DNA from: Acidovorax sp. A79
GTDB lineage: Bacteria; Pseudomonadota; Gammaproteobacteria; Burkholderiales; Burkholderiaceae_C
DNA length: 64,000 nucleotides
Reading direction: 5' to 3'
Assembly (NCBI RefSeq): GCF_041154505.1
Contig: NZ_AP028672.1
Location: 2,374,001-2,438,000 of the forward strand
Made by a program: the position numbers and the translations under genes
In this document: positions 50,644-63,852 of the stretch, piece after piece
Layout: each line of letters starts with the position of its first letter
How positions within the stretch are numbered: the first letter of the stretch is position 1
Notes under the pieces: model-generated
The model's input: only the letters and a program-made list of their open reading frames with translations
Database searches by the model: none
What the model was told of the DNA's origin: nothing

Positions 50644-51540
50644 ATGAACTTCAAGCACCTGCGCTACTTCTGGACCACGGCCAAGGCGGGCGGCATCATG
50701 CGCGCCGGCGAGCAGCTCAACACCACGCCGCAGACGCTGTCGGGCCAGATCAAGCAGCTGGAGGAATGGCTGGGCCACGACCTGTTCAAGAAGCGCGGCC
50801 GGGGGCTGGAGCTGACCAGCGAAGGCCGCGTGGCGCTGGGCTATGCGGAGCAGATCTTCGCGCTGGGCGACGAGCTGGAAAAGTCCATCCGCCTGGCGCG
50901 CGGGCAGTCGCGCCCGCTGGAGTTCCGCGTGGGCGTGGCGGATTCGGTGGCCAAATCGGTCGCCTACCGCCTGCTGGAGCCGGCAATGGGCCTGGCCGAA
51001 CAGGTGCACATGACCTGCCACGAGGGCAAGTTCCCCGAGCTGGTGGCGCAGCTGAGCCTGAACCGGCTGGACCTGGTGCTGGCGGACGAGCCGGTGTCCA
51101 AGAAGATCGGCGTCAAGGCCTTCAACCACGGCCTGGGCACCAGCTCCATGAGCTTCTTCTGCGCACCGGCCCTGCGCAGCCAGCTGCAAGGACCCTTCCC
51201 CAAGTGCCTGCATGGCGCGCCGATGCTGATCCAGGGGCCCATGTCCTCGGTGCGCCAGCAGCTCGATCACTGGTTCAACAAGCACCAGCTGCAGCCACGC
51301 CTGGTGGGGGAGTTCGACGACAGCGCGCTGATGAACGCCTTCGGGCGCGAGGGGCGCGGGGTGTTCACCTCGCCCACGGTGCTGGAGGAGGAGACGCAGG
51401 CCCAGTTCGGGGTCGAGGTGATCGGGCGCTCCACGGAGCTGGTCGAGGAGTTCTTCGCGATCTCGGTGGAGCGGCGCATCAGCCACCCCTGCGTGGCGGC
51501 CATCACCAAGGCGGCCCGGTCCGACCTGTTCGCTGCGTAA
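50644..51540 (+). CDS. nhaR: NhaR-like LysR-type regulator
   Basis: A 298-residue LysR protein resembling NhaR: MNFKHLRYFWTTAKAGGIMRAGEQLNTTPQTLSGQI (first 36 residues, read in parts) is the NhaR HTH, with a periplasmic-binding-like effector domain after ~95. E. coli NhaR responds to Na+ and activates nhaA and osmC. No nhaA is adjacent here. AAGGAG precedes the ATG. A family 1 repeat follows its stop. Confidence 0.82.
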   Translation: MNFKHLRYFWTTAKAGGIMRAGEQLNTTPQTLSGQIKQLEEWLGHDLFKKRGRGLELTSEGRVALGYAEQIFALGDELEKSIRLARGQSRPLEFRVGVADSVAKSVAYRLLEPAMGLAEQVHMTCHEGKFPELVAQLSLNRLDLVLADEPVSKKIGVKAFNHGLGTSSMSFFCAPALRSQLQGPFPKCLHGAPMLIQGPMSSVRQQLDHWFNKHQLQPRLVGEFDDSALMNAFGREGRGVFTSPTVLEEETQAQFGVEVIGRSTELVEEFFAISVERRISHPCVAAITKAARSDLFAA

Positions 51541-51683: not shown

Positions 51684-52634
51684 TCAAGCCGTCACCTGCA
51701 CTTGGCGCGCGTAAGGCAGCGGCGCCACGGCGCCATAGCCCTGCACGGCCAGCGCGGCGGCGGCATTGGCATAGCGCGCCGCAGTGAACACGTCGTCGCC
51801 CTTCGCCATGCGGGCCAGCAGGTTGCCGCAGAAACAGTCGCCCGCGCCCGTGGCGTCCACCGGGGTCACGCGCAGGCCCGCGATGCGCTCCCTGCGCTGG
51901 CCATCGCTGGCCAGGGCCCCCTCGGCACCGAGCTTGAGCACCACCGTGGCAGCGCCGCGCGCGTGGCCCCAGTCGGCGATGGCATCGGGATCGGTCAGGC
52001 CGGTCAGGGCCTGCATGTCCTCCAGGCTGGGCAGGAAGATGTCGCACAGCGCCACCGCCTGCGCGATGCAGGCCTGGGCCCGCGCCAGCGGCCAGAGCTT
52101 CAGGCGCAGGTTGGAGTCGAAGGCCACCCGGGTGCCGGCCTCGCGCGCGAGACGCATGGCCTCGAAGGCGGTATCGCAGGCCTGCGGCGAGATGGCCAGC
52201 GAAATGCCCGACAGGTGCAGGATGCGTGCGGCGCGCAGCACGGCAGCGGGCTCGCCGGACAGCCACTGCGGCGTCATGCGGCTGGCTGCCGAGCCCGCGC
52301 GCAGGTAGCTGAACTCGTGCCCATTCGCCCCGTGTGTGACGAAATAGATGCCGGTGGGGTGCTCGCCATCGCTCTGCACGCCACGCACGTCCACGCCCTC
52401 GGTGCGCCACAGCGTGGCCAGGGCCTGGCCGAACGTATCCTGCCCGACGCGCGTGAGGTAGGCCACGCGGGCGCCGGCCCGTGCGGCGGCGATGGCGGCG
52501 TTGCTGGTGTCGCCCCCGAAGCCGCGCAGGTACTGCGGCTGGCCGGGGTGGACCTGGTTGAACTCGACCATGGCCTCGCCGAGCGCGGCCACGTCGAAGG
52601 CTTTGCCCACCGATGGTGCGGGGTGGTCAGGCAC
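51684..52634 (-). CDS. kdgK: 2-keto-3-deoxygluconate kinase-type PfkB sugar kinase
   Basis: A 316-residue PfkB-family kinase. Features specific to 2-keto-3-deoxygluconate (KDG) kinases are visible: FGGDTSNAA (~38-46), GIYFV, FSYLRAGSAAS, LSGISLAIS and DSNLRLKLW, with the catalytic DATGAGD at 260-266. It should phosphorylate KDG to KDPG in the cytosol for Entner-Doudoroff-type aldol cleavage. It overlaps ridA by 8 bp and is divergent from a transporter/dehydratase/deacylase operon, giving a likely source of KDG from an amino-sugar acid. Confidence 0.88.
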   Translation of the reverse strand: MPDHPAPSVGKAFDVAALGEAMVEFNQVHPGQPQYLRGFGGDTSNAAIAAARAGARVAYLTRVGQDTFGQALATLWRTEGVDVRGVQSDGEHPTGIYFVTHGANGHEFSYLRAGSAASRMTPQWLSGEPAAVLRAARILHLSGISLAISPQACDTAFEAMRLAREAGTRVAFDSNLRLKLWPLARAQACIAQAVALCDIFLPSLEDMQALTGLTDPDAIADWGHARGAATVVLKLGAEGALASDGQRRERIAGLRVTPVDATGAGDCFCGNLLARMAKGDDVFTAARYANAAAALAVQGYGAVAPLPYARQVQVTA

Positions 52635-53019
52635 GGGGCTTGTAGGCGGTGACGTCGATCTCGACCTTGGCGTCGATCATGAGGCGCGACTCCACCGTCG
52701 AGCGTGCCGGGCGGTGCTCGCCAAAGCACTCCATGTAGACACGGTTGAAGCTGCCGAAATCGCGCGCATCGGCCAGCCAGACGCTGACCTTGGCCACATC
52801 GGCCAGAGTGCAGTCGGCCAGTGCCAGGGCGTCCTTGACGCGCTGGAACACCTGGCGCGTCTGCGCCTCGATGCCGCCGACGATGACCTGGCCCTGGTCG
52901 TCCGTGGGCACCTGGCCCGAGACGAAGACGAAGTCGCCGGCGCGCGTGGCGGGGGACAGGGGGCGCGCCTGGCGGTCGGAGGCGATGGGGGACTGGCCCA
53001 GCAGTTCTACGTGGCTCAT
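52627..53019 (-). CDS. ridA: RidA/YjgF-family enamine-imine deaminase
   Basis: A 130-residue RidA-family protein: FVFVSGQVP, the ligand arginine expected near RPARSTVES (~105) and a terminal VEIDVTAYKP. RidA hydrolyses reactive enamine/imine products of PLP dehydratases, fitting the fold-III dehydratase in the divergent operon. AAGGAG precedes the ATG. Translationally coupled to the kinase. Confidence 0.88.
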   Translation of the reverse strand: MSHVELLGQSPIASDRQARPLSPATRAGDFVFVSGQVPTDDQGQVIVGGIEAQTRQVFQRVKDALALADCTLADVAKVSVWLADARDFGSFNRVYMECFGEHRPARSTVESRLMIDAKVEIDVTAYKPRA

Positions 53020-53034
53020 GGATCAAGCTCCTTG

Positions 53035-53049
53035 TGTAAATTATTTACA
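53035..53049. promoter_or_regulatory. RpiR/HexR-like operator 1 (TGTAAATTATTTACA)
   Basis: A perfect 15-bp palindrome around a central T, 16 bp upstream of ridA. It resembles the TGTAAT...ATTACA box of HexR, an RpiR-family regulator, and coincides with the predicted transcription start of ridA-kdgK. Confidence 0.65.
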
Positions 53050-53055
53050 TCAAAC

Positions 53056-53084
53056 ATCCTAAAAAACCCGTTTGACTTTCACAA
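53056..53084 (-). promoter_or_regulatory. Predicted promoter of ridA-kdgK
   Basis: On the minus strand TTGTGA (53084-53079), a 17-bp spacer and TAGGAT (53061-53056). The start point would be at about 53049, the edge of operator 1. Confidence 0.5.
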
Positions 53085-53100
53085 AAGGGTAATCTACGAT
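53072..53100 (+). promoter_or_regulatory. Predicted promoter of the transporter-dehydratase-deacylase operon
   Basis: TTGACT (53072-53077), a 17-bp spacer and TACGAT (53095-53100). The start point would be at about 53107, the first base of operator 2. Its -35 box lies one base from the -35 box of the divergent promoter. Confidence 0.55.
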
Positions 53101-53106
53101 GAAAAA

Positions 53107-53121
53107 TGTAATGTTATTACT
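53107..53121. promoter_or_regulatory. RpiR/HexR-like operator 2 (TGTAATGTTATTACT)
   Basis: TGTAAT-GTT-ATTAC(T): a near-palindrome with the same form as operator 1, 72 bp away, 12 bp upstream of the binding-protein ATG. Binding here would block the plus-strand promoter. Confidence 0.55.
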
Positions 53122-53133
53122 TATGGAGCCACG

Positions 53134-54732
53134 ATGCAATCCTCATCCATCCGCGATTGGTTGACGCCCGGAATGCCTGTACAGGCCGCCCGGCGCAGTG
53201 TTCTGGGCCTGGCCGCCAGTGCGGCCGTGCTCGTGGCCCTGGGGTCGGGCACGGCCGCCCAGGCCGCCCCCGCCAAGGGCGGCGCGGCCAACCTGGCCAT
53301 GGTCGGCGAACCGCAGGGGCTGGACCCCATGGTGAGCACGGCCGACCTGGTCGGCACCATCATGCAGCACGTGTACGAGCCGCTGTACACCTTTGACGCG
53401 AACTGGGCCGTGGCACCCATGCTGGCCGAGGGTCTGCCCACCGTGTCCAAGGACGGGCTGACCTACACCATCGCGCTGCGCAAGGAAGTGAAGCTGCACA
53501 ACGGCCGCGACCTGAACGCCGAGGACGTGGTGGCCTCGCTGCAGCGCTGGATGGAGTTGTCGCCGCGCGGCAAGGCCGTGGGCAAGGAGGTGGCCTCGCT
53601 CACCGCCAAGGGCCCGCTGTCGGTGGAGCTCAAGCTCAAGGCGCCCTACGCGCCGCTGCTGGCCCAGCTGGCGCTGCCCAGCGGCATGGCGGCCATCATG
53701 GCCAAGGAGAGCATCGCGCCGCAGCTCAAGGACTTCATCGGCACCGGCCCCTACAAGTTCAAGGAGCGCCGCCCCGACCAGTTCACGGTGCTGGTACGCC
53801 ACGACACCTACAGCGCCCGCAAGGAGGCCCCGAGCGGCTACGCCGGCCGCCGCGAGGCTCTGCTCGACGAGCTGCGCTTCGTGCCCGTGCCCAATGCCAA
53901 CACGCGCGTGGAAGGCGCCCTGTCGGGCCAGTTCCAGTACGCCGACCTGCTGCCCGTGGAAGCGGCAGGCCGCATCGACAAGGGCGCGCCAGCCGTGGTG
54001 CCCATCGTGACCAAGAACTTCGGCTTCCCCTACATCGTCTTCAACACCAAGGAGGGCGTGCTGGCCGCGCAGCCGCTGCGCCGCGCCGTGCAGACCGCCG
54101 TGGGCTCAGGCGAGCTGCTGGCCGCCGGCTTTGGCGACAACCGCTTCTTCGTGGTGGAGCCCAACTTCTTCCCCAAGGGCACGCCCTACTACGCCGACGC
54201 TGGCAGCAAGCTGTACAACGAGCGCAACCCGCAGGCCGCCAAGGACCAGGCGGCCAAGGCCGGCTACAACGGCCAGCCGGTGCGCATCATGGCCAGCCGG
54301 CAGTACGAGTTCCACTACAACATGGCGCTGGTGATGGCCGAGCAGCTCAAGAAGGCCGGCTTCAAGACCGAGCTGCAGGTGGTGGACTGGGCCACGCTGG
54401 TGCAGCGGCGCAACGACCCCAAGCTGTGGGACGTGTACTTCACGCACTCGGGCCTGTTCCCCGAACCCATGCTCTCGCCGCCGCAACTGGGTGACGGTGC
54501 ACCGGGCTGGTGGGATTCGCCCGCCAAGAAGGCCACGCTCACGGCCTTCAACCAGGAGACCAATGTCGCCAAGCGCGGCCCGTTGTGGGCTGCCGTGCAG
54601 CAGGTGGTGTACGACGAGGTGCCCTTCATCGAAGTGGGCAAGTTCAACAGCCTGTCGGCGCGCTCGGCCAAGCTCGAGGGCTACACCCCGGCGATCTGGC
54701 CGTTCTTCTGGAACACGGGCCTCACCAAGTAA
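53134..54732 (+). CDS. Family-5 (oligopeptide-type) ABC transporter binding protein
   Basis: A 532-residue periplasmic binding protein. Long N-region with RR (ARRSVLGLAAS) suggests Sec or Tat export; cleavage near AQAA|PAKG. The body follows the DppA/OppA pattern: PQGLDPM, VYEPLYTF, GLTYTIALRKEVKLHNGRD-like and IGTGPYKFKE. Family 5 proteins bind peptides but also oligosaccharides and amino-sugar compounds. First gene of a seven-gene operon; GGAG five bases before the ATG. Confidence 0.88.
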   Translation: MQSSSIRDWLTPGMPVQAARRSVLGLAASAAVLVALGSGTAAQAAPAKGGAANLAMVGEPQGLDPMVSTADLVGTIMQHVYEPLYTFDANWAVAPMLAEGLPTVSKDGLTYTIALRKEVKLHNGRDLNAEDVVASLQRWMELSPRGKAVGKEVASLTAKGPLSVELKLKAPYAPLLAQLALPSGMAAIMAKESIAPQLKDFIGTGPYKFKERRPDQFTVLVRHDTYSARKEAPSGYAGRREALLDELRFVPVPNANTRVEGALSGQFQYADLLPVEAAGRIDKGAPAVVPIVTKNFGFPYIVFNTKEGVLAAQPLRRAVQTAVGSGELLAAGFGDNRFFVVEPNFFPKGTPYYADAGSKLYNERNPQAAKDQAAKAGYNGQPVRIMASRQYEFHYNMALVMAEQLKKAGFKTELQVVDWATLVQRRNDPKLWDVYFTHSGLFPEPMLSPPQLGDGAPGWWDSPAKKATLTAFNQETNVAKRGPLWAAVQQVVYDEVPFIEVGKFNSLSARSAKLEGYTPAIWPFFWNTGLTK

Positions 54733-54756
54733 GCCCCAGAGCGAAGGTTCGTTGCC

Positions 54757-55704
54757 ATGCGTTTTCTGATGAACCGCCTGGGCGGCGCCCTAGTGGTGCT
54801 GGCCCTCGTCGCGGTGCTGGTGTTCGCGCTCACGCGCCTAGCCTCGGGCGACCCGGTGGCGCTGCTGCTGGGCGACCAGGCCACGGCCGCCGACATCGCC
54901 GCGGCGCGCACGCAGTACGGGCTGGACAAGCCCCTGCCCACGCAGTTCGTGCTGTGGGTGGGCGAGCTGCTGCAGGGCAACCTGGGCCAGTCCATCTTCT
55001 TGCAGCGCCCGGTGGCGCAGGCGCTGCTGGAGCGCGCCGAGCCCACGCTGTTCCTGGCACTGTTCGCGGTGGGCATCGCGGCGCTGATCGGCATTCCCTG
55101 CGGCATGGCGGCGGCCATCTGGCGCGGCAGCGCGGGTGACCAGGCGCTGAGCGGCGTGGCCATGCTGGGCGCCAGCGTGCCCAGCTTCTGGCTCGGGCTG
55201 ATCCTGATCCAGCTGTTCGCGGTCAAGCTCGGCTGGTTCCCGGCATCGGGCTATGGCGATCCGTCGTCGCCGCTGGCCGAGCGCCTGTCGCACCTCTTGC
55301 TGCCGGCGCTGGTGCTGGGGCTGCTGAACTCGGCGCTGATCATCCGCTTCACGCGCGCCTCCATGCTCGACATCCTGGGCGAGGACTATGTGCGCACCGC
55401 ACGCGCCAAGGGCCTGGCCGAGCGCACGGTGATGGTCAAGCATGTGCTGCGCAATGCGCTGGTGCCCATCGTCACCGTGCTCGGCCTGACGCTGGCGCTG
55501 ATGATCGGCGGCACGGTGGTGACGGAGACGGTGTTCAACCTGCCCGGCGTGGGCAACCTGGTGGTGCGCGCCGTGCTGCGCCGCGACTACCCGGTGATCC
55601 AGGGCACGCTGCTGGTGATTGCGGCGATCTATGTGTTCATCAACCTGGCCATCGATTTTCTGTACACGCTGGTCGATCCGCGCATCCGGCTGGAGGGCAA
55701 ATGA
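54757..55704 (+). CDS. Oligopeptide-type ABC transporter permease (DppB-like)
   Basis: A 315-residue permease with six helices, the DppB N-terminus FLMNRLGGALVVL and the cytoplasmic EAA loop EDYVRTARAKGLAERTVM. Ends with DPRIRLEGK. 24 bp after the binding-protein gene. Confidence 0.9.
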   Translation: MRFLMNRLGGALVVLALVAVLVFALTRLASGDPVALLLGDQATAADIAAARTQYGLDKPLPTQFVLWVGELLQGNLGQSIFLQRPVAQALLERAEPTLFLALFAVGIAALIGIPCGMAAAIWRGSAGDQALSGVAMLGASVPSFWLGLILIQLFAVKLGWFPASGYGDPSSPLAERLSHLLLPALVLGLLNSALIIRFTRASMLDILGEDYVRTARAKGLAERTVMVKHVLRNALVPIVTVLGLTLALMIGGTVVTETVFNLPGVGNLVVRAVLRRDYPVIQGTLLVIAAIYVFINLAIDFLYTLVDPRIRLEGK

Positions 55705-55705
55705 T

Positions 55706-56575
55706 ATGTGGCAACGCCTGATCCGCAATCTCCGTGACTACTGGCTGCCGCTGGCACGCAAGCTGTTCGCCCGCAAGGTGGTGCTGGCCTCGGCCATCGT
55801 GCTGGCGCTGGTGGTCGTAGTGGCCACGGTGTTCCCCTGGGTGTCGGATGCCGACCCCAACGCCATCTCGATCAGCGAGCGCCTGAACGCGCCTTCGGCC
55901 GCGCACTGGGCCGGCACCGACGAGCTGGGGCGCGACGTGATGCTGCGCATCGTGCATGGCGCGCGCTATTCGCTGCTGATCGGCGGGCTCACCGCGGCGG
56001 GCGCCGTGCTGTTCGGCACGCTGCTGGGCATGTTCGCGGGCTTCTTTCGGCGCCTGGACGCACCGCTGATGCGCGTGGTGGACGCGATGATGTCCTTCCC
56101 CGACATCCTGCTGGGGATTGCGCTGGTGTCCATCCTGGGCGCCTCGCTGTGGAACGTGATGCTGGCGCTGGTCATCGTCTACACGCCGCGCGTGGCACGC
56201 GTGGTGCGGGCCAGCACCCTGGTGCTGCGCGAGCTGCTGTTCGTGGACGCGGCACGCGCCCTGGGCGTGCGCACGCCGCGCATCCTGCTCAAGCACATCC
56301 TGCCCAACCTGGTCTCGCCCATCCTGGTGCAGGTGACCTTCATCTTCGCCTATGCCATCCTGGCCGAGGCGGGCCTGTCCTTCCTGGGCGTGGGCGTGCC
56401 GCCCGACATCCCCACCTGGGGCACCATGATCGCGGGCAGCCTGGAGTCGGCCGACCGCGCGTTCTGGACCATTCTCTACCCGGGCCTGGCCATCGTGTTC
56501 ACCGCCCTGTCGCTGCAGATGCTGGGCGACGGTGTGCGCGACCTGCTCGACCCCAAGCTCAAGAAGGCCGCATGA
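55706..56575 (+). CDS. Oligopeptide-type ABC transporter permease (DppC-like)
   Basis: A 289-residue permease: HWAGTDELGRDVMLRIVHGAR is the DppC signature near residue 70, and an EAA loop RELLFVDAARALGVRTPRI follows. One base separates it from the DppB-like gene's stop; GGAGG lies just upstream of the ATG. Confidence 0.9.
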   Translation: MWQRLIRNLRDYWLPLARKLFARKVVLASAIVLALVVVVATVFPWVSDADPNAISISERLNAPSAAHWAGTDELGRDVMLRIVHGARYSLLIGGLTAAGAVLFGTLLGMFAGFFRRLDAPLMRVVDAMMSFPDILLGIALVSILGASLWNVMLALVIVYTPRVARVVRASTLVLRELLFVDAARALGVRTPRILLKHILPNLVSPILVQVTFIFAYAILAEAGLSFLGVGVPPDIPTWGTMIAGSLESADRAFWTILYPGLAIVFTALSLQMLGDGVRDLLDPKLKKAA

Positions 56576-56639
56576 GCTTCTTTCACCGACCCACGCAAGC
56601 GCCCGCCCCTGGCGAGCGCGTTACGAAGGCAACCCACCC

Positions 56640-57682
<1,043 letters not shown>

Positions 57683-57686
<4 letters not shown>

Positions 57687-58660
57687 GCGCCGTTGCCAGC
57701 GACAACCTGATCGAAGTGCGCGGGCTGCGCAAATACTTCGGCAGCGGCACGCACCCGGTGCGTGCGGTGGACGATGTGAGCTTTGCCATCCGGCGCGGCG
57801 AGACCCTGGGCCTGGTGGGCGAGTCGGGCTCGGGCAAGAGCACCATCGGCCGCCTGCTGACCCGGCTGGTGGACCCGACGGCCGGGCAGATGCTGTACCA
57901 CGGCGGCGACGCCGGTGGGCAGGATCTGGCGGGGATGAGCCAGGGCCAGTTCCGCCCGCTGCGTTCCAAGATCCAGATCATCTTCCAGGACCCGTATGCC
58001 AGCCTGAACCCGCGCATGCGCATCCGCGAAGTGCTGGGTGAGGCACTGGACACGCACAAGCAGGCGCGCGGCGCGGCACGCCAGCCGCGCATCCAGGAGT
58101 TGCTCACGCAGGTGGGCCTCAGGCCCGAGCATGCGGACCGGTTTCCGCACGAGTTCTCGGGCGGGCAGCGCCAGCGCATCGGCATTGCGCGCGCACTGGC
58201 GGTGCAGCCGAACTTCATCGTGGCGGACGAGCCGCTGTCGGCGCTGGACGTGTCGATCCAGGCGCAGGTGGTGAACCTGCTGGGCGACCTCAAGGAGCAG
58301 CTGGGCCTGACCCTGCTGTTCATCTCGCACGACCTGGACGTGGTGGAGTACCTGTGCGACCGCGTGGTGGTGCTCTACCTGGGCCGGGTGATGGAGATCG
58401 CGCCCACCAGCGCACTGTATGCACAGCCGGCCCACCCCTATACACGCGCCCTGCTGGCGGCCGCGCCGATCCCCGATCCGGCGCAGCGGCGTACCATTCC
58501 GCTGCTGCAGGGCGACCTGCCCAGCCCCGCCAACCCGCCGTCGGGCTGCGTGTTCCGCACACGCTGCCCGCACGCGGTGGCTGAATGCGCCAGCGCCGAC
58601 ATGGCCCTGCGCCCCGTGGGCACCGAGCACTGGAAGGCCTGCTGGCGCGACGACATCTGA
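57683..58660 (+). CDS. Oligopeptide-type ABC transporter ATPase (DppF-like)
   Basis: A 325-residue ATPase: [31 protein letters not shown] and the C-terminal [14 protein letters not shown]. Overlaps the DppD-like gene by 4 bp (ATGA). Completes the importer. Confidence 0.9.
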
Positions 58661-58701
58661 CTGTGCAGCCTGGCTGCGCGCTCGCAACATGAAAACACAC
58701 C

Positions 58702-59988
58702 ATGAGCACCACCACTGACTTCACCCTGGACGCCTCCTGCAAGAGCTATCCCCTCGCCGCAGCGCCCTGCCGCGCCAGCGAGATCGCCGCGCGCGGCTGG
58801 AACGTGCTGGCCGACGACCTGGCGTTCCCCCTGGCGGTGCTGAGCCGCACGGCTCTGGCACACAACCTGGCCTGGATGCAGGATTTCGCGGCGCGCAAGG
58901 GCATTGCGCTGGCGCCGCACGGCAAGACCACCATGTCGCCCGAGCTCTTTGCACAGCAGCTGGCGGGCGGTGCCTGGGGCCTGACCTTCGCCACGGCCTT
59001 CCAGGTCGCGGTGGGGGTGCAAGCCGGTGCGCGCCGCGTCATCATCGCCAACCAGGTGGTCTGCGATGCCGACCTGGATGCGCTCGATGCACTGCTGGCG
59101 CGCCACGCCGATCTCACAGTGTGGTTCCTCGTGGATTCGCTCGCGCAGCTCACGCTGGTCGAGGACTGGAAGCAGCGCCGCGGCAGTGCCCGGGTGTTCA
59201 ACGTGCTGCTGGAGATGGGCGTCCCCGGTCAGCGCACCGGCTGCCGCACGCTGGACGAGGCTCTGGCACTGGTGCGCGCACTGGCGGCCTCGAAGGCGGT
59301 GCAGTTCGATGGCATCGAATGCTACGAGGGCGGCGTGGCGCGCTGCGACAACGACCATGACGCACGTGAAGTGACCGCCCTGGTGCGCCGCGTGCTGGAG
59401 GTCGCCCGCACCTGCGACGCAGCGCACCTGTTCGCCAGCGAGCGCATCCTGCTCACGGCCGGCGGCTCGGCCGTGTTCGACCTGGTGGTGCCGCTGCTGC
59501 AGGCCCAGGGCCTGTCACGCCCCGTGGAGGGCGTGCTGCGCTCGGGCTGCTATGTGACGCACGACCATGGCAACTACGCGCGCTTCCTCAAGAACGTGGA
59601 GCAGCGCGAAGGGCTCGATGCCTCGCTGCGCCCGGCCCTCACGGTCTGGGCCATGGTGCAGTCGGTGCCGGAGCCGGGCCTGGCCCTGTTGACCTGCGGG
59701 CGCCGCGACATCTCCTACGACCTGGAGATGCCCATCCCGGTGCAGCTGGCGCGGCGCGGCGAGCGCTCGGCGGCGGTCGCCCCTGCCGGCTGGAGCGTGA
59801 GCGCCTTGAACGACCAGCATGCCTACCTGCGCTTCGATGCCGCAGCCGGCGACGCCGCTGCGCCCCGTGTGGGCGACCGCGTGGCGCTGGGTATCTCGCA
59901 CCCCTGCACCACCTTCGACAAGTGGCGCTGGATGCCGCTGGTGGAAGACGATGGCGCCATCACGGGTGCCATCAGCACCCGGTTCTGA
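58702..59988 (+). CDS. Metal-dependent fold-type III PLP dehydratase (D-glucosaminate dehydratase/D-serine deaminase type)
   Basis: A 428-residue enzyme with an alanine-racemase-type barrel and the D-serine-dehydratase-like C-terminal domain. PLP lysine K75 in APHGKTTMSP; metal ligands H400 and C402 in SHPCTTFDKW. This family removes water and ammonia from D-configured beta-hydroxy amino acids. D-serine and D-glucosaminate are both fitting substrates; the linked KDG kinase and SIS-domain regulator favour D-glucosaminate, whose product is KDG. RidA would assist release of the enamine intermediate. Confidence 0.85.
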   Translation: MSTTTDFTLDASCKSYPLAAAPCRASEIAARGWNVLADDLAFPLAVLSRTALAHNLAWMQDFAARKGIALAPHGKTTMSPELFAQQLAGGAWGLTFATAFQVAVGVQAGARRVIIANQVVCDADLDALDALLARHADLTVWFLVDSLAQLTLVEDWKQRRGSARVFNVLLEMGVPGQRTGCRTLDEALALVRALAASKAVQFDGIECYEGGVARCDNDHDAREVTALVRRVLEVARTCDAAHLFASERILLTAGGSAVFDLVVPLLQAQGLSRPVEGVLRSGCYVTHDHGNYARFLKNVEQREGLDASLRPALTVWAMVQSVPEPGLALLTCGRRDISYDLEMPIPVQLARRGERSAAVAPAGWSVSALNDQHAYLRFDAAAGDAAAPRVGDRVALGISHPCTTFDKWRWMPLVEDDGAITGAISTRF

Positions 59989-60003
59989 GACGCGGAGAAG
60001 CGC

Positions 60004-60969
60004 ATGAACAGCAGCCTGCCTCCTTCGCCCTCGTCCTCCACCCAGCCACCCAGCCCCACGCCGGGATTGCTGCAGCAACTGCGCGAGCGCCAGGACAGCC
60101 TGCCCGAGGCGCAGCGCAGCGTGGTGCGCGCGGTGCTGGAGGACCCCCGCGTTGCCGTGGCCGCCACGGTGGAGCAACTGGCGCAGCAGGCCGGCGTGTC
60201 CATGCCGACCATCGTGCGCACCTGCCGCAGCTTCGGCTACGACTCGGTGCGCGAGTTCATGCTGGCGCTGGCGCAGGACCTGGCGGTCTCGGGCTCCTAT
60301 CTGCACCGCAGCGTGCTGGCCGAGGACACGGCGCAGGACGTCTCCAGCAAGATCATCCATGCGGCCGTCTCCTCGCTGACCGAGCTGGGCCGGCGCATCG
60401 ACGTGGACGTGATCGACCAGGTGGCCGCCAAGCTCGCCAAGGCGCGGCGCATCGACTGCTACTCGGTGGGTGCGGCATCGACCTTCACGGCCAGCGAGCT
60501 GCAGAGCCGGCTGTTCCGCCTGGGCCTCACGGCCAACGCGATCTTCGACGCGCACCAGCAACTGGTCTCTGCCAGCACCCTGGGCCCCGAGGGCGTGGCC
60601 TTCGTGGTCTCGCACGTGGGGCGCATGCCCTACACGGTGGAGGCGGCGCGTTTCGCCCGCTCGCAGGGCGCCACGGTGATCGCGCTGACCCAACCCGGTA
60701 CGCCGCTGGCCGAGACGGCCGACCTGGTGCTGGCCGTGTCGGTGCCGCAGGATGCGGTGATGCGCGTGGGCACCGAGGCCTACCTGGCCCACCTGGTGGT
60801 GATCGAGATCCTGATGGTGCGCCTGGCGCAGCAGTTGGGGCCGGTGGCCACGCGGGGCCTGCAGCAGTTCAAGCAGCTTTTGCACAAACACGGATTCGAC
60901 AGCGCCGAGTATTCGGGCGCCATGGACCACGGCCCGGGCATGCACAAGCCGGGCCAGAAAGACAATTGA
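60004..60969 (+). CDS. RpiR/HexR-family regulator with SIS domain
   Basis: A 321-residue regulator: N-terminal RpiR HTH (~15-90; VEQLAQQAGVSMPTIVRTCRSFGY) and a SIS sugar-phosphate-binding domain (~130-260; RRIDCYSVGAAS, SHVGRMPYTVEAA). HexR of this family senses KDPG, the product expected from the KDG kinase in the divergent unit. Two HexR-like boxes lie between the divergent promoters. Its TGA overlaps the next ATG by one base. Confidence 0.88.
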   Translation: MNSSLPPSPSSSTQPPSPTPGLLQQLRERQDSLPEAQRSVVRAVLEDPRVAVAATVEQLAQQAGVSMPTIVRTCRSFGYDSVREFMLALAQDLAVSGSYLHRSVLAEDTAQDVSSKIIHAAVSSLTELGRRIDVDVIDQVAAKLAKARRIDCYSVGAASTFTASELQSRLFRLGLTANAIFDAHQQLVSASTLGPEGVAFVVSHVGRMPYTVEAARFARSQGATVIALTQPGTPLAETADLVLAVSVPQDAVMRVGTEAYLAHLVVIEILMVRLAQQLGPVATRGLQQFKQLLHKHGFDSAEYSGAMDHGPGMHKPGQKDN

Positions 60970-62438
60970 TGGCAGCAACGCAAGCAACCCTGCTGAAGAA
61001 CGGAACCATCATCGACGGCACCGACCGCCCCGGATGGGTGGGCGACCTGCTGCTGGCAGGCGAGCGCATCGTGGCGCTGGCCGCGCCCAGCGCCATCGAC
61101 CCGGCCTTGTTCGCCGGCATGGAGGTACAGACCATCGACTGCACGGACCGCGTGATCGCACCCGGCTTCATCGATGTGCACACGCACGACGATGCGGCCG
61201 CCATCGACGCGCCCGACATGCTGCCCAAGCTGTCGCAGGGCGTGACCACGGTGATCGTGGGCAACTGCGGCATCTCGCTGGCCCCCATGGTGACGGATGC
61301 ACCGGCGGCGCCGCTGTCGTTGCTGGGCCAGCGCCAGTTCCGCCACGCGCGCATGGCCGACTACGCACGCGCCGTGGATGCCGCGCGGCCCGGCGTGAAC
61401 GTGGCCGCGCTGCTGGGCCACACGGCCCTGCGCATGCGCCACCTGCCCGAGCTGGGCCGTGCGGCCACGGCCAGCGAGCGCGCCGCCATGGCGGTCGACA
61501 TGCAGGAGGCCATGGACGCGGGCGCGCTGGGCCTGTCATCGGGCGTGTTCTACAAGGAAGCCTACGCGGCCGACCTCACCGAGCTGATCGAACTGGCCAG
61601 CGTGGCTGCGCGCAATGGCGGCGTGTACGCCACCCACATCCGCGACGAACTCGCCGGCATCCTCCCGGCGCTGCAGGAGGCGGCGCTCACGGCGCGCCAT
61701 GCCGGGCTGCCGCTGGTGCTGTCGCACCACAAGTGCGCCGGCGCCTCGAACTGGGGCCGCACGCGCGAGACGCTGCCGCTGATCGAGTCCCTCGCAAAGG
61801 GCCAGCCCATCAGCCTGGACGTGTACCCCTACACCGCGGGTTCGACGGTGCTGCGCACCGACCTGGTAGACGGTGTGATCGACATCCTGATCACCGGCAG
61901 CCAGCCACACCCGGAAATGGTGGGCCGTTACCTCAAGGACATCGCGCGGGAATGGGACACGACCGAGCAGGCGGCCTGCGACCGGCTGCAGCCCGGCGGT
62001 GCCTGCTACTTCCAGATGCGCGAGGACGATGTAGAGCGCGTGATTGCCCACCCCTTGTCCATGATCGGCTCGGACGGCCTGCCCCATGACGAGCGGCCGC
62101 ATCCCCGCCTGTGGGGCGCCTTCCCGCGCGTGCTGGCCTGCTACTGGCGCGAGAAGGGCGTGCTGCGTCTGGAGGAAGCCATCCACAAGATGACCGGCCT
62201 GTCGGCCCAACGCTTTCGCATCGGCGAGCGCGGGCGGCTGGAAGCCGGCTGCATGGCCGATATCGTGGTGTTCGACCCGGCGCGCGTGCGCGATACCGCG
62301 AGCTACGAACAACCCGTGCAGTTCAGCGAGGGGATCGAACAGGTTTGGGTCAACGGCGTGCTGAGCTACACCGCGGCTGGTCGTGCCACGGGCGCGCGGG
62401 CCGGGCGGTTCATCCGGCGTCAGGCACTACCGGCCTGA
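60969..62438 (+). CDS. N-acyl-D-amino-acid deacylase (D-aminoacylase family)
   Basis: A 489-residue amidohydrolase-superfamily enzyme. Zinc ligands H71 and H73 (DVHTHDD), C100 (GNCGIS), H223 (THIRDE) and H253/H254 (SHHK) match the D-aminoacylase of Alcaligenes with a constant offset of about four residues; GSDGLPHD carries the catalytic Asp. It removes acyl groups from N-acyl-D-amino acids; in this operon N-acetyl-D-glucosaminate is a good candidate. Last gene of the operon. Confidence 0.9.
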   Translation: MAATQATLLKNGTIIDGTDRPGWVGDLLLAGERIVALAAPSAIDPALFAGMEVQTIDCTDRVIAPGFIDVHTHDDAAAIDAPDMLPKLSQGVTTVIVGNCGISLAPMVTDAPAAPLSLLGQRQFRHARMADYARAVDAARPGVNVAALLGHTALRMRHLPELGRAATASERAAMAVDMQEAMDAGALGLSSGVFYKEAYAADLTELIELASVAARNGGVYATHIRDELAGILPALQEAALTARHAGLPLVLSHHKCAGASNWGRTRETLPLIESLAKGQPISLDVYPYTAGSTVLRTDLVDGVIDILITGSQPHPEMVGRYLKDIAREWDTTEQAACDRLQPGGACYFQMREDDVERVIAHPLSMIGSDGLPHDERPHPRLWGAFPRVLACYWREKGVLRLEEAIHKMTGLSAQRFRIGERGRLEAGCMADIVVFDPARVRDTASYEQPVQFSEGIEQVWVNGVLSYTAAGRATGARAGRFIRRQALPA

Positions 62439-62592: not shown

Positions 62593-63237
62593 TCAGCTCA
62601 CGGCTGAGCGGGTCAGCAGCAGCCGGATGCCTGCGTACACGAAGACTCCAGCCAGCAGCGCATTGAATGCGCGATGGATGCGGGCGTATGCCGCACGTGC
62701 CAACGGTGTCGAAAATGCCAGGGCATAGCCCATGAAGATACAAGCTCCGATGCCGGCGCAACACGCCACGACCGCCAGGGCATGGCTGCGTCCGGCGCCG
62801 GCGGGCACGCCGAGAGCGACGATGGAAAGCCACACAAAGACGGCCTTGGGGTTGGTCATGTGCATCGCCAGGCCGCGCCGAAAAGCCTGGCGGTGGTCGC
62901 CGCCCGTGGTGTCGGAGGCCTCGTGCAGGGCATTCGGCGTGAATGCGGCATGCGCCGCCTTCCAGGCCAGCCAGAGCATGTAGATGCCGCCCAGCACCTT
63001 CAGGACGAGCAAGGACCAGGAATAGCTGCGCATGAGTGCCGACATGCCCAGTGCAGCGGCCATACCCCAAAACACCGAGCCGAGGACCACCCCGGTAGCC
63101 AGGGCCATGGCACGCCTCCGTCCATGCGACATGGCGGCCGCCATGATCGCCAGATTGCTGGGGCCAGGGCTTGCAACACCAACTGTATAGGCCATGAGCG
63201 CCACCAGCAGGGCCGGGGACAGAAAACCTGCGTCCAT
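62593..63237 (-). CDS. LysE-family amino-acid exporter
   Basis: A 214-residue inner-membrane protein with six helices and the LysE/RhtB pattern PGPSNLAIMAAAMSHGRR near the start and MTNPKAVFVWLSI in the middle. Exports amino acids or homoserine-like compounds. ATG at 63237 with GAGGCC(T)CC-type Shine-Dalgarno AGGAGGCC nearby. The 154-bp gap before it (62439-62592) shows no feature. Confidence 0.85.
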   Translation of the reverse strand: MDAGFLSPALLVALMAYTVGVASPGPSNLAIMAAAMSHGRRRAMALATGVVLGSVFWGMAAALGMSALMRSYSWSLLVLKVLGGIYMLWLAWKAAHAAFTPNALHEASDTTGGDHRQAFRRGLAMHMTNPKAVFVWLSIVALGVPAGAGRSHALAVVACCAGIGACIFMGYALAFSTPLARAAYARIHRAFNALLAGVFVYAGIRLLLTRSAVS

Positions 63238-63299
63238 GGAAGAGGCCTCCTGGAATGCACACCCCACCAAAGAGGAAAGCCGCTCACTGCAATGGCAGG

Positions 63300-63334
63300 G
63301 CACAAACAAAAACGCCCACGGTAAAGTGGGCGTT
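63300..63334 (-). terminator. Rho-independent terminator of the rplQ-tRNA transcript
   Basis: AACGCCCAC-6 nt-GTGGGCGTT: perfect 9-bp stem (63311-63334) followed on the minus strand by TTTTTGTTTGTG. It lies just downstream of the tRNA and upstream of lysE. Confidence 0.85.
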
Positions 63335-63459: not shown

Positions 63460-63852
63460 TTATTCAGCTGCTGCCGAATTATTTTCGGTTTCTGCAGCAC
63501 GATCCACCAATTCAACCAGGGCCATGGGTGCATTGTCGCCCACACGGAAACCCATCTTGAGGATGCGGGTGTAGCCACCAGGACGCACCTTGAAGCGGGG
63601 GCCCAGGTCGTTGAACAGCTTGGTCACGCTGTCACGGTCGCGCAGGCGGTTGAAGGCCAGGCGGCGGTTGGCAACGGAGTCTTCCTTGGCCAGGGTGATC
63701 ATGGGTTCAATCACGCGGCGCAGTTCCTTGGCCTTGGGAACGGTGGTCTTGATGACTTCGTGCTCGATGAGCGAGTTCATCATGTTCTGCAGCATCGCAA
63801 GGCGGTGCGAGCTGGTGCGGTTGAGTTTGCGGAGGCCGTGACCGTGACGCAT
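63460..63852 (-). CDS. rplQ: 50S ribosomal protein L17
   Basis: A 130-residue L17: [40 protein letters not shown] and [20 protein letters not shown] (read in parts) are family blocks. It follows rpoA as in the alpha operon of nearly all bacteria. Housekeeping translation gene. Confidence 0.98.

Follow-up and report, generated by a model that had tools for sequence, protein, structure and literature searches.

Organization of the gene cluster

Within a 64,000-nt stretch of the Acidovorax sp. A79 genome (contig NZ_AP028672.1, positions 2,374,001–2,438,000; referred to here as the window, in whose numbering all positions are given) is a divergent cluster of ten genes that probably serves the scavenging of an N-acetylated aminoaldonate. 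On the minus strand are the genes for a PfkB-family kinase (51684–52634, Pfam PfkB 209.8 bits), predicted to phosphorylate 2-keto-3-deoxyaldonates of the 2-keto-3-deoxygluconate (KDG) type, and for a RidA family protein (52627–53019, Pfam Ribonuc_L-PSP). On the plus strand is an Opp/Dpp-type ATP-binding cassette (ABC) importer, composed of a family 5 substrate-binding protein (53134–54732, Pfam SBP_bac_5 213 bits), two permeases (54757–55704, Pfam BPD_transp_1 and NCBIfam; 55706–56575, NCBIfam) and ATPases of the OppD/DppD (56640–57686) and OppF/DppF (57683–58660) types, both assigned by NCBIfam. Downstream of the importer, on the same strand, are a fold-III pyridoxal phosphate (PLP) deaminase/dehydratase (58702–59988, Pfam D-ser_dehydrat and Ala_racemase_N), a HexR-like RpiR/SIS transcription regulator (60004–60969, Pfam HTH_6 and SIS) and a subtype-V amidohydrolase (60969–62438, Pfam Amidohydro_3/1), the last predicted to be an N-acyl-D-amino-acid or N-acetyl-aminoaldonate deacylase. 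Located between the two arms are predicted operator 1 (TGTAAATTATTTACA, 53035–53049) and, directly upstream of predicted operator 2 (TGTAATGTTATTACT, 53107–53121), a sigma-70-like promoter (53072–53100, predicted from sequence).

All ten genes are complete open frames within 51684–62438, and the families assigned to them in the original prediction were borne out by the frames and by Pfam and NCBIfam. Pfam scans covered the cluster except for permease 2 and the two ATPases, for which NCBIfam alone was used; the starts of permease 2 and of the OppD/DppD-type ATPase were chosen by reading. The RpiR and deacylase genes overlap by 1 base.

A deacylase at least 55% identical to that of the window is encoded in 31 of 250 genomes surveyed from the host's family. 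Neighbourhoods were compared for 30 of these, the window included (the window and L168 represent the same species; genome G177 lies outside the 30 neighbourhoods and fingerprints examined), with loci annotated by BLAST to a reference set. Gene order is mostly kept, and because the deaminase (28/30), RidA (27/30), RpiR (27/30) and the family 5 binding protein (25/30) recur so regularly, the block is not a chance assembly; an all-against-all comparison for further conserved core neighbours gave nothing recurrent that could be assigned to the core. The controls, which differ in length and origin, are 38 loci around other homologues of D-aminoacylase. Among 80 loci of wider relatives, 37 were annotated (L030–L064, L067 and L089), the other 43 being more distant. 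Belonging to neither the 30-locus nor the 38-locus group are L012, L013, L025, L030–L039, L040, L041, L042, L043, L067 and the OngB-type loci.

That the kinase/RidA arm and the ABC/deaminase/deacylase arm have separate functions and adjoin only by chance is very improbable. The kinase is indeed missing from many relatives, but RidA, present in nearly all the family loci, is divergent from the ABC or the deaminase gene, shares the predicted intergenic operator pair with the ABC/deaminase side in the window's subclade, and overlaps PfkB by 8 bases.

The system used here for comparison is the ong cluster of Pseudoalteromonas prydzensis ACAM 620, in which N-acetyl-D-glucosaminate (GlcNAc1A) is reported to be converted to D-glucosaminate (GlcN1A) by OngB, to KDG by OngC and to KDG 6-phosphate by KdgK, under control of the repressor OngR and with an essential RidA protein, OngD, for which that account gives no known activity; the five catabolic and regulatory genes were tested by deletion, and OngB, OngC and KdgK were active in vitro (PMC9537276).

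The deacylase and its pocket

The residues H71, H73, C100, H223 and H253, singled out in the original prediction, are invariant in 17 aligned deacylases, as is the catalytic aspartate D369, and the subtype-V metal site and catalytic aspartate of OngB (C97, H222, H252, D368) have equivalents in the window protein. Among solved structures the best-scoring is 9g5m (50% identity, 488 bits), followed by the D-aminoacylase AfDam (PDB 1m7j; 49% identity, 456 bits) and PpOngB (9kb1; 41% identity, 385 bits); aligned to PpOngB, the pocket residues of 9g5m are of the OngB type.

In PpOngB numbering the pocket of the window deacylase comprises F193, A256, G290, T292, L298 and Q348, a fingerprint that we refer to here as FAGTLQ. 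Shared with the OngB family (PMC12017989; 9kb1, 9kb3 and 9kb4) are the subtype-V zinc site, the catalytic aspartate, E226, the carboxylate-binding K254, Y285, S291 and R379; Y194, D368 and L370 complete the general anchors that are kept alongside the metal ligands. In place of F193, G290, T292, L298 and Q348, however, OngB proteins have A, S, S, Q and G/N/C. The window enzyme resembles AfDam at 193, 290 and 292, whereas A256 and Q348 replace two methionines of AfDam; of the hydrophobic AfDam pocket (F, M, L and M at 193, 256, 298 and 348), hydrophobic character is retained at F193 and L298 and not at A256 and Q348. In the PpOngB study, A193, A256, S292, Q298 and G348 are contrasted with D-aminoacylases, Ser290 contacts the C5 and C6 hydroxyls, and kcat/Km falls to 1.3% with S292T alone and to 6.9% with Q298A (PMC12017989). 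Because either substitution cripples PpOngB on GlcNAc1A, the substrate here may be something other than free GlcNAc1A.

In a quick tree of 55 rows, covering part of the available sequences, 24 FAGTLQ proteins lie on one fork (Shimodaira–Hasegawa-like approximate likelihood-ratio test 97) and nine OngB-type proteins on another (93, or 100 with Pantoea L028); both forks are apart from AfDam, and the tree leaves their sister relation unsettled. Identity of the deacylase with OngB was rejected on both its pocket residues and its clade. Of the 30 family loci, 29 carry this fingerprint without change and one reads FCGTLQ. Outside the FAGTLQ clade and OngB, A256 and Q348 occur together only in L040, L042 and L043, all of which have the deaminase. 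The closest named relative, at 93%, is from an Acidovorax metagenome-assembled genome locus, and the nearest relatives place the host in the Comamonadaceae, near Acidovorax. As regards L042 and L043, the deacylase in the record titled Mycobacterium sp. KBS0706 closely matches the one from Inquilinus limosus, so that the species name on this record seems mistaken.

In genome G208, from the host's family, a FAGTLQ–ABC cluster (L171) coexists with an OngB-type (AASSQG) one that includes a GntP permease (L197), so the two clusters probably have different jobs. Together with the constancy of the fingerprint and with the DgoK and 2-keto-3-deoxy-6-phosphogalactonate (KDPGal)-type aldolase of two relatives, described below, this is consistent with the same chemistry acting on a larger or stereochemically different natural substrate; candidates include N-acetyl-D-galactosaminate and 4-O-glycosylated acids like N-acetylchitobionate. 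A substrate of this sort would account for the altered pocket as well as for the Opp-type importer. We put this forward tentatively: DgoK and the aldolase are found also in a Klebsiella OngB-type cluster, so the galactose configuration is not singled out, and the case for any such compound is inferential. With similar reserve, the FAGTLQ clade could be a second family of N-acetyl-aminoaldonate deacetylases with a specialisation of its own, the polar pocket glutamine having shifted from 298 to 348. Its substrate would be an aminoaldonate distinct from free GlcNAc1A, for instance N-acetyl-D-galactosaminate or a glycosylated acid, which betaproteobacteria would scavenge through a dedicated Opp-type importer.

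Deaminase, RidA and importer

K75, H400 and C402, the deaminase residues named in the original prediction, are present in the translation. The protein shares 34–35% identity with the OngC homologues from the Pseudoalteromonas sp. CF6-2 and Klebsiella clusters (34% at 95% coverage for CF6-2), its nearest solved relative is 3gwq, named as a D-serine deaminase, and its gene, so regular in the FAGTLQ loci, is found in 0 of the 38 control loci (kinship uncorrected). OngC is reported to act also on D-Ser and D-Thr (PMC9537276); owing to this breadth the deaminase cannot tell the candidate substrates apart, and it was discarded as a discriminator between them. RidA is 48% identical to its counterpart in the CF6-2 ong cluster, and the binding protein has its best PDB sequence matches in 8vdx and AgaA 6hlx.

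These assignments are also compatible with the use of N-acyl-D-amino acids, such as N-acetyl-D-serine/threonine or D-peptide-derived compounds, which would be imported by the peptide-type ABC system, deacylated and dehydrated to a 2-keto acid, with RidA clearing the enamine and the kinase being a lineage-specific neighbour outside the core pathway. Such a pathway would fit the importer type, the name of 3gwq, the D-Ser and D-Thr activity of OngC, the AfDam-like residues at 193, 290 and 292 and the higher score of the deacylase against AfDam than against PpOngB; yet the best-scoring structure of all, 9g5m, has an OngB-type pocket, and A256 and Q348 separate the clade from AfDam.

A second D-ser_dehydrat protein, encoded elsewhere in the host genome (L009, G000:C1:3786557-3786826), shares about 30% identity with the OngC homologue from Klebsiella. 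The FAGTLQ clusters L190 and L193 are without a deaminase in the stretch, L190 also without the ATPases, possibly through decay.

The kinase and the 2-keto-3-deoxy sugar acid product

The best NCBIfam matches of the window PfkB are KDG and 2-keto-3-deoxygalactonate kinases, below cut-off (187.5 bits versus 400). In a midpoint-rooted tree of 30 rows, again part of those available, with long branches flagged among the outgroup paralogues, it falls within a ten-row clade (90/92). The linked PfkBs, that of L192 excepted, form one clade with the kinases of L016, a Cupriavidus OngB-type cluster containing GntP, and of L149, and this window-type clade joins E. coli KdgK, the ong KdgKs and the kinases of L192 and L197 (94/89). 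In a row in L149 (Polaromonas sp. YR568) are an EDD-type dehydratase, a PfkB 70% identical to that of the window, DgoK, the KDPGal-type aldolase DgoA and a short-chain dehydrogenase/reductase. A family 8 substrate-binding protein gene lies near this operon.

A kinase (PfkB, KdgK or DgoK) is linked in 7 of the 30 FAGTLQ loci, against 0 of 38 control loci (p = 0.002, kinship uncorrected). Where linked, the kinase gene adjoins RidA in some loci and immediately follows that of the deacylase in others. L012 (Comamonas odontotermitis) and L033 (Pollutimonas) have in its place DgoK, which is not homologous to PfkB, together with a KDPGal-type aldolase, the pair lying at one end of the cluster in the first and at the other end in the second; Ramlibacter L032 has a PfkB plus a DgoK fragment at the contig end. 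Since the Klebsiella cluster with an OngB-type deacylase carries DgoK and aldolase too, DgoK was rejected as proof of a galactosaminate substrate. Encoded in the host genome are two KDPG (2-keto-3-deoxy-6-phosphogluconate)-type aldolase matches, whose neighbours are an EDD-like gene in one case and a DgoK-like gene in the other.

The linked kinases bear directly on the use of N-acyl-D-amino acids. Although the loci without one favour such use, the breakdown of D-amino acids does not call for a KDG-type kinase, yet such a kinase is linked, at two alternative positions, either as PfkB or as non-homologous DgoK with aldolase. The control loci, moreover, have a D-amino-acid dehydrogenase (3/38) or an amidase (3/38) and no such kinase, and beside deacylases of the window's own clade are a glycoside hydrolase of family 20 (GH20), a TonB receptor and GntP. 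We therefore consider N-acyl-D-amino acids an unlikely substrate class. That the product is instead a 2-keto-3-deoxy sugar acid, as originally predicted, is likely, given the kinase clade, its replacement by DgoK and aldolase in two relatives, the GH20, TonB and GntP neighbours and the HexR/RccR-like operators.

The regulator and predicted operators

The best NCBIfam match of the RpiR protein is HexR (172 bits, below the cut-off of 296); identity to its counterparts is 27% for CF6-2 and 31% for Klebsiella. The motif GTAAn5TTAC occurs exactly twice in the window (53036–53048 and 53108–53120; expected 0.02), in both cases in the divergent promoter region. Both predicted operators are conserved in relatives with a close RpiR: among 38 intergenic regions, 12 contain the motif, as a pair 72–74 bp apart in 10 (L031 and L170 being the same locus) and as a single copy in 2, and in these the RpiR is at least 58% identical to that of the window. 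The operator is thus not common to all relatives, the motif being missing in the other 26 regions, where the in-cluster RpiR is at most 53% identical or there is none. L173, one of these 26, has an in-cluster RpiR at 49% and, beyond RidA, a second RpiR gene at 62%.

The predicted sites resemble the reported HexR motif TGTAATTAAATTACA (PMC11906056) and the paired sites of RccR, which are 68 bp apart and whose binding is weakened by KDPG (PMC5489143). Common to all three systems are an RpiR/SIS protein and 15-bp TGTA...TAC(A/T) pseudo-palindromes, paired also for RccR (PMC5489143, PMC11906056); the window system differs in that its RpiR is below the HexR cut-off and its predicted sites lie only beside this operon within the 64 kb searched. 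On the basis of these likenesses, KDPG or a compound like it is the predicted effector of the RpiR protein.

Chitin genes in the host and its relatives

Oxidised chitin, named as the source in the original prediction, was rejected for this host: two GH18 matches are present in its genome, but neither LPMO_10 (lytic polysaccharide monooxygenase, LPMO) nor Glyco_hydro_20 has a match at E 0.001. In the family, GH20 occurs in 12 of the 250 genomes, in 7 of the 31 with the deacylase versus 5 of the 219 without (p = 1.2e-4, kinship uncorrected). In four of those seven (L215–L218), GH20 is apart from the ABC cluster, in a module of TonB receptor, GH20 and family 1 sugar ABC importer whose binding protein is 61–62% identical to that of L192.

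More closely associated are GH20 and the FAGTLQ deacylase in other loci. In L192, L195 and L196 the deacylase is beside GH20 and a family 1 sugar ABC importer (Pfam-checked in L196), L192 having in addition a TonB receptor and PfkB. Assembled together in Caulobacter vibrioides T5M6 (L041) are GH20, a GntP permease, a TonB receptor, RpiR, RidA, the deaminase and a FAGTLQ deacylase, apparently a complete route from the outer membrane to the cytoplasm. Two Burkholderiales OngB-type clusters, L016 and L197, also use GntP, a gluconate-type permease.

Proposed pathway and relation to the ong cluster

From the gene content, homology, clades, neighbourhoods and operator motifs, which are observed directly, we infer the reactions, the effector and the substrate of the operon as follows. 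The Opp/Dpp-type importer would take up the acid, and the zinc deacylase would remove its acetyl group. The PLP deaminase, assisted by RidA, would then eliminate water and ammonia to give a 2-keto-3-deoxyaldonate of the KDG type, which the PfkB kinase would convert to KDPG for cleavage by a KDPG-type aldolase of the host. RpiR is predicted to repress both divergent transcripts through the two 15-bp palindromes, with release by KDPG or by a phosphosugar acid related to it. On balance we favour scavenging of an N-acetyl-2-amino-2-deoxy-aldonate, GlcNAc1A or a close relative, as the function of the operon. Of the N-acetyl-D-glucosaminate route originally predicted, the ong-like gene logic and the substrate class, likely to be that of the N-acetyl-aminoaldonates, are retained, GlcNAc1A being one candidate within that class; oxidised chitin as its source in this host is not, and here the difference at four of the five constant OngB pocket residues adds to the lack of LPMO_10 and Glyco_hydro_20 matches.

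Several observations weigh against this assignment. Of the five residues constant in nine OngB-type proteins (A193, A256, S290, S292 and Q298) the deacylase keeps A256 only; S292 and Q298, important for GlcNAc1A, and Ser290 are replaced by T, L and G. The PfkB is 28% identical to the KdgK of CF6-2, and 23 of the 30 FAGTLQ loci have no kinase within the stretch. The deaminase is lacking in 2 of these 30 stretches and RidA in 3, and of the whole set the plasmid locus L025 has the binding protein, RpiR and deacylase only. The usual ligands of family 5 binding proteins are peptides, nickel or opines. To the lack of LPMO_10 and Glyco_hydro_20 matches in the host are added the 24 of 31 deacylase genomes that lack GH20 and the distribution of LPMO, which is not enriched with the deacylase (2/31 versus 8/219 genomes, p = 0.36).

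With the ong cluster the window shares a fold-III PLP deaminase, a D-aminoacylase-like deacylase, RidA, a PfkB kinase and RpiR. It differs in having an Opp/Dpp-type ABC importer in place of the sodium symporter OngIT (SSS family), in lacking GH20 (OngA) and a TonB receptor in the cluster and an LPMO match in the host, and in its deacylase of another clade and kinase of a neighbouring clade. Under the ong authors' rule (at least four genes with >30% identity to ACAM 620), three genes pass with CF6-2 as the stand-in, RpiR and the kinase being at 27–28%, and four with the Klebsiella genes. Because the symporter, GH20, LPMO and the OngB pocket were each looked for and not found, the operon is not an ong member as defined.

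The combination of ong cluster and lpmo has been reported for Gammaproteobacteria and a single betaproteobacterium, Achromobacter piechaudii (PMC9537276, Fig. 6 legend); distant or no matches to OngB and OngC are reported for Aeromonas (PMC11653859), and the gammaproteobacterial type of neighbourhood was observed earlier in Paraglaciecola hydrolytica (PMC7014002). A full-text search of openly licensed PMC papers, the supplements of the ong papers not included, gave among the matches listed none on a betaproteobacterial ABC variant. In keeping with the original suggestion that this enzyme set may be new for a betaproteobacterium, the operon is probably an importer-equipped, scavenging N-acetyl-aminoaldonate operon of Comamonadaceae and relatives, and apparently an undescribed variant of the ong pathway. 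If so, the breakdown of amino-sugar acids, for which most descriptions come from gammaproteobacterial chitin degraders, would extend to betaproteobacteria in a broad though patchy distribution, most of the carriers having neither LPMO nor GH20. The AASSQ and FAGTLQ deacylase clades, coexisting in one genome, would then be a pair in which to find the determinants of specificity for N-acetyl-D-amino acids versus N-acetyl-aminoaldonates.

Flanking genes

Tail to tail with the kinase gene is that of a LysR regulator (50644–51540), which adjoins the kinase also in L030 and L168. At the other end of the cluster are two flanking genes (62593–63309 and 63460–63852), the one bordering it being of the LysE family by Pfam scan and the second encoding what we take to be ribosomal protein L17.

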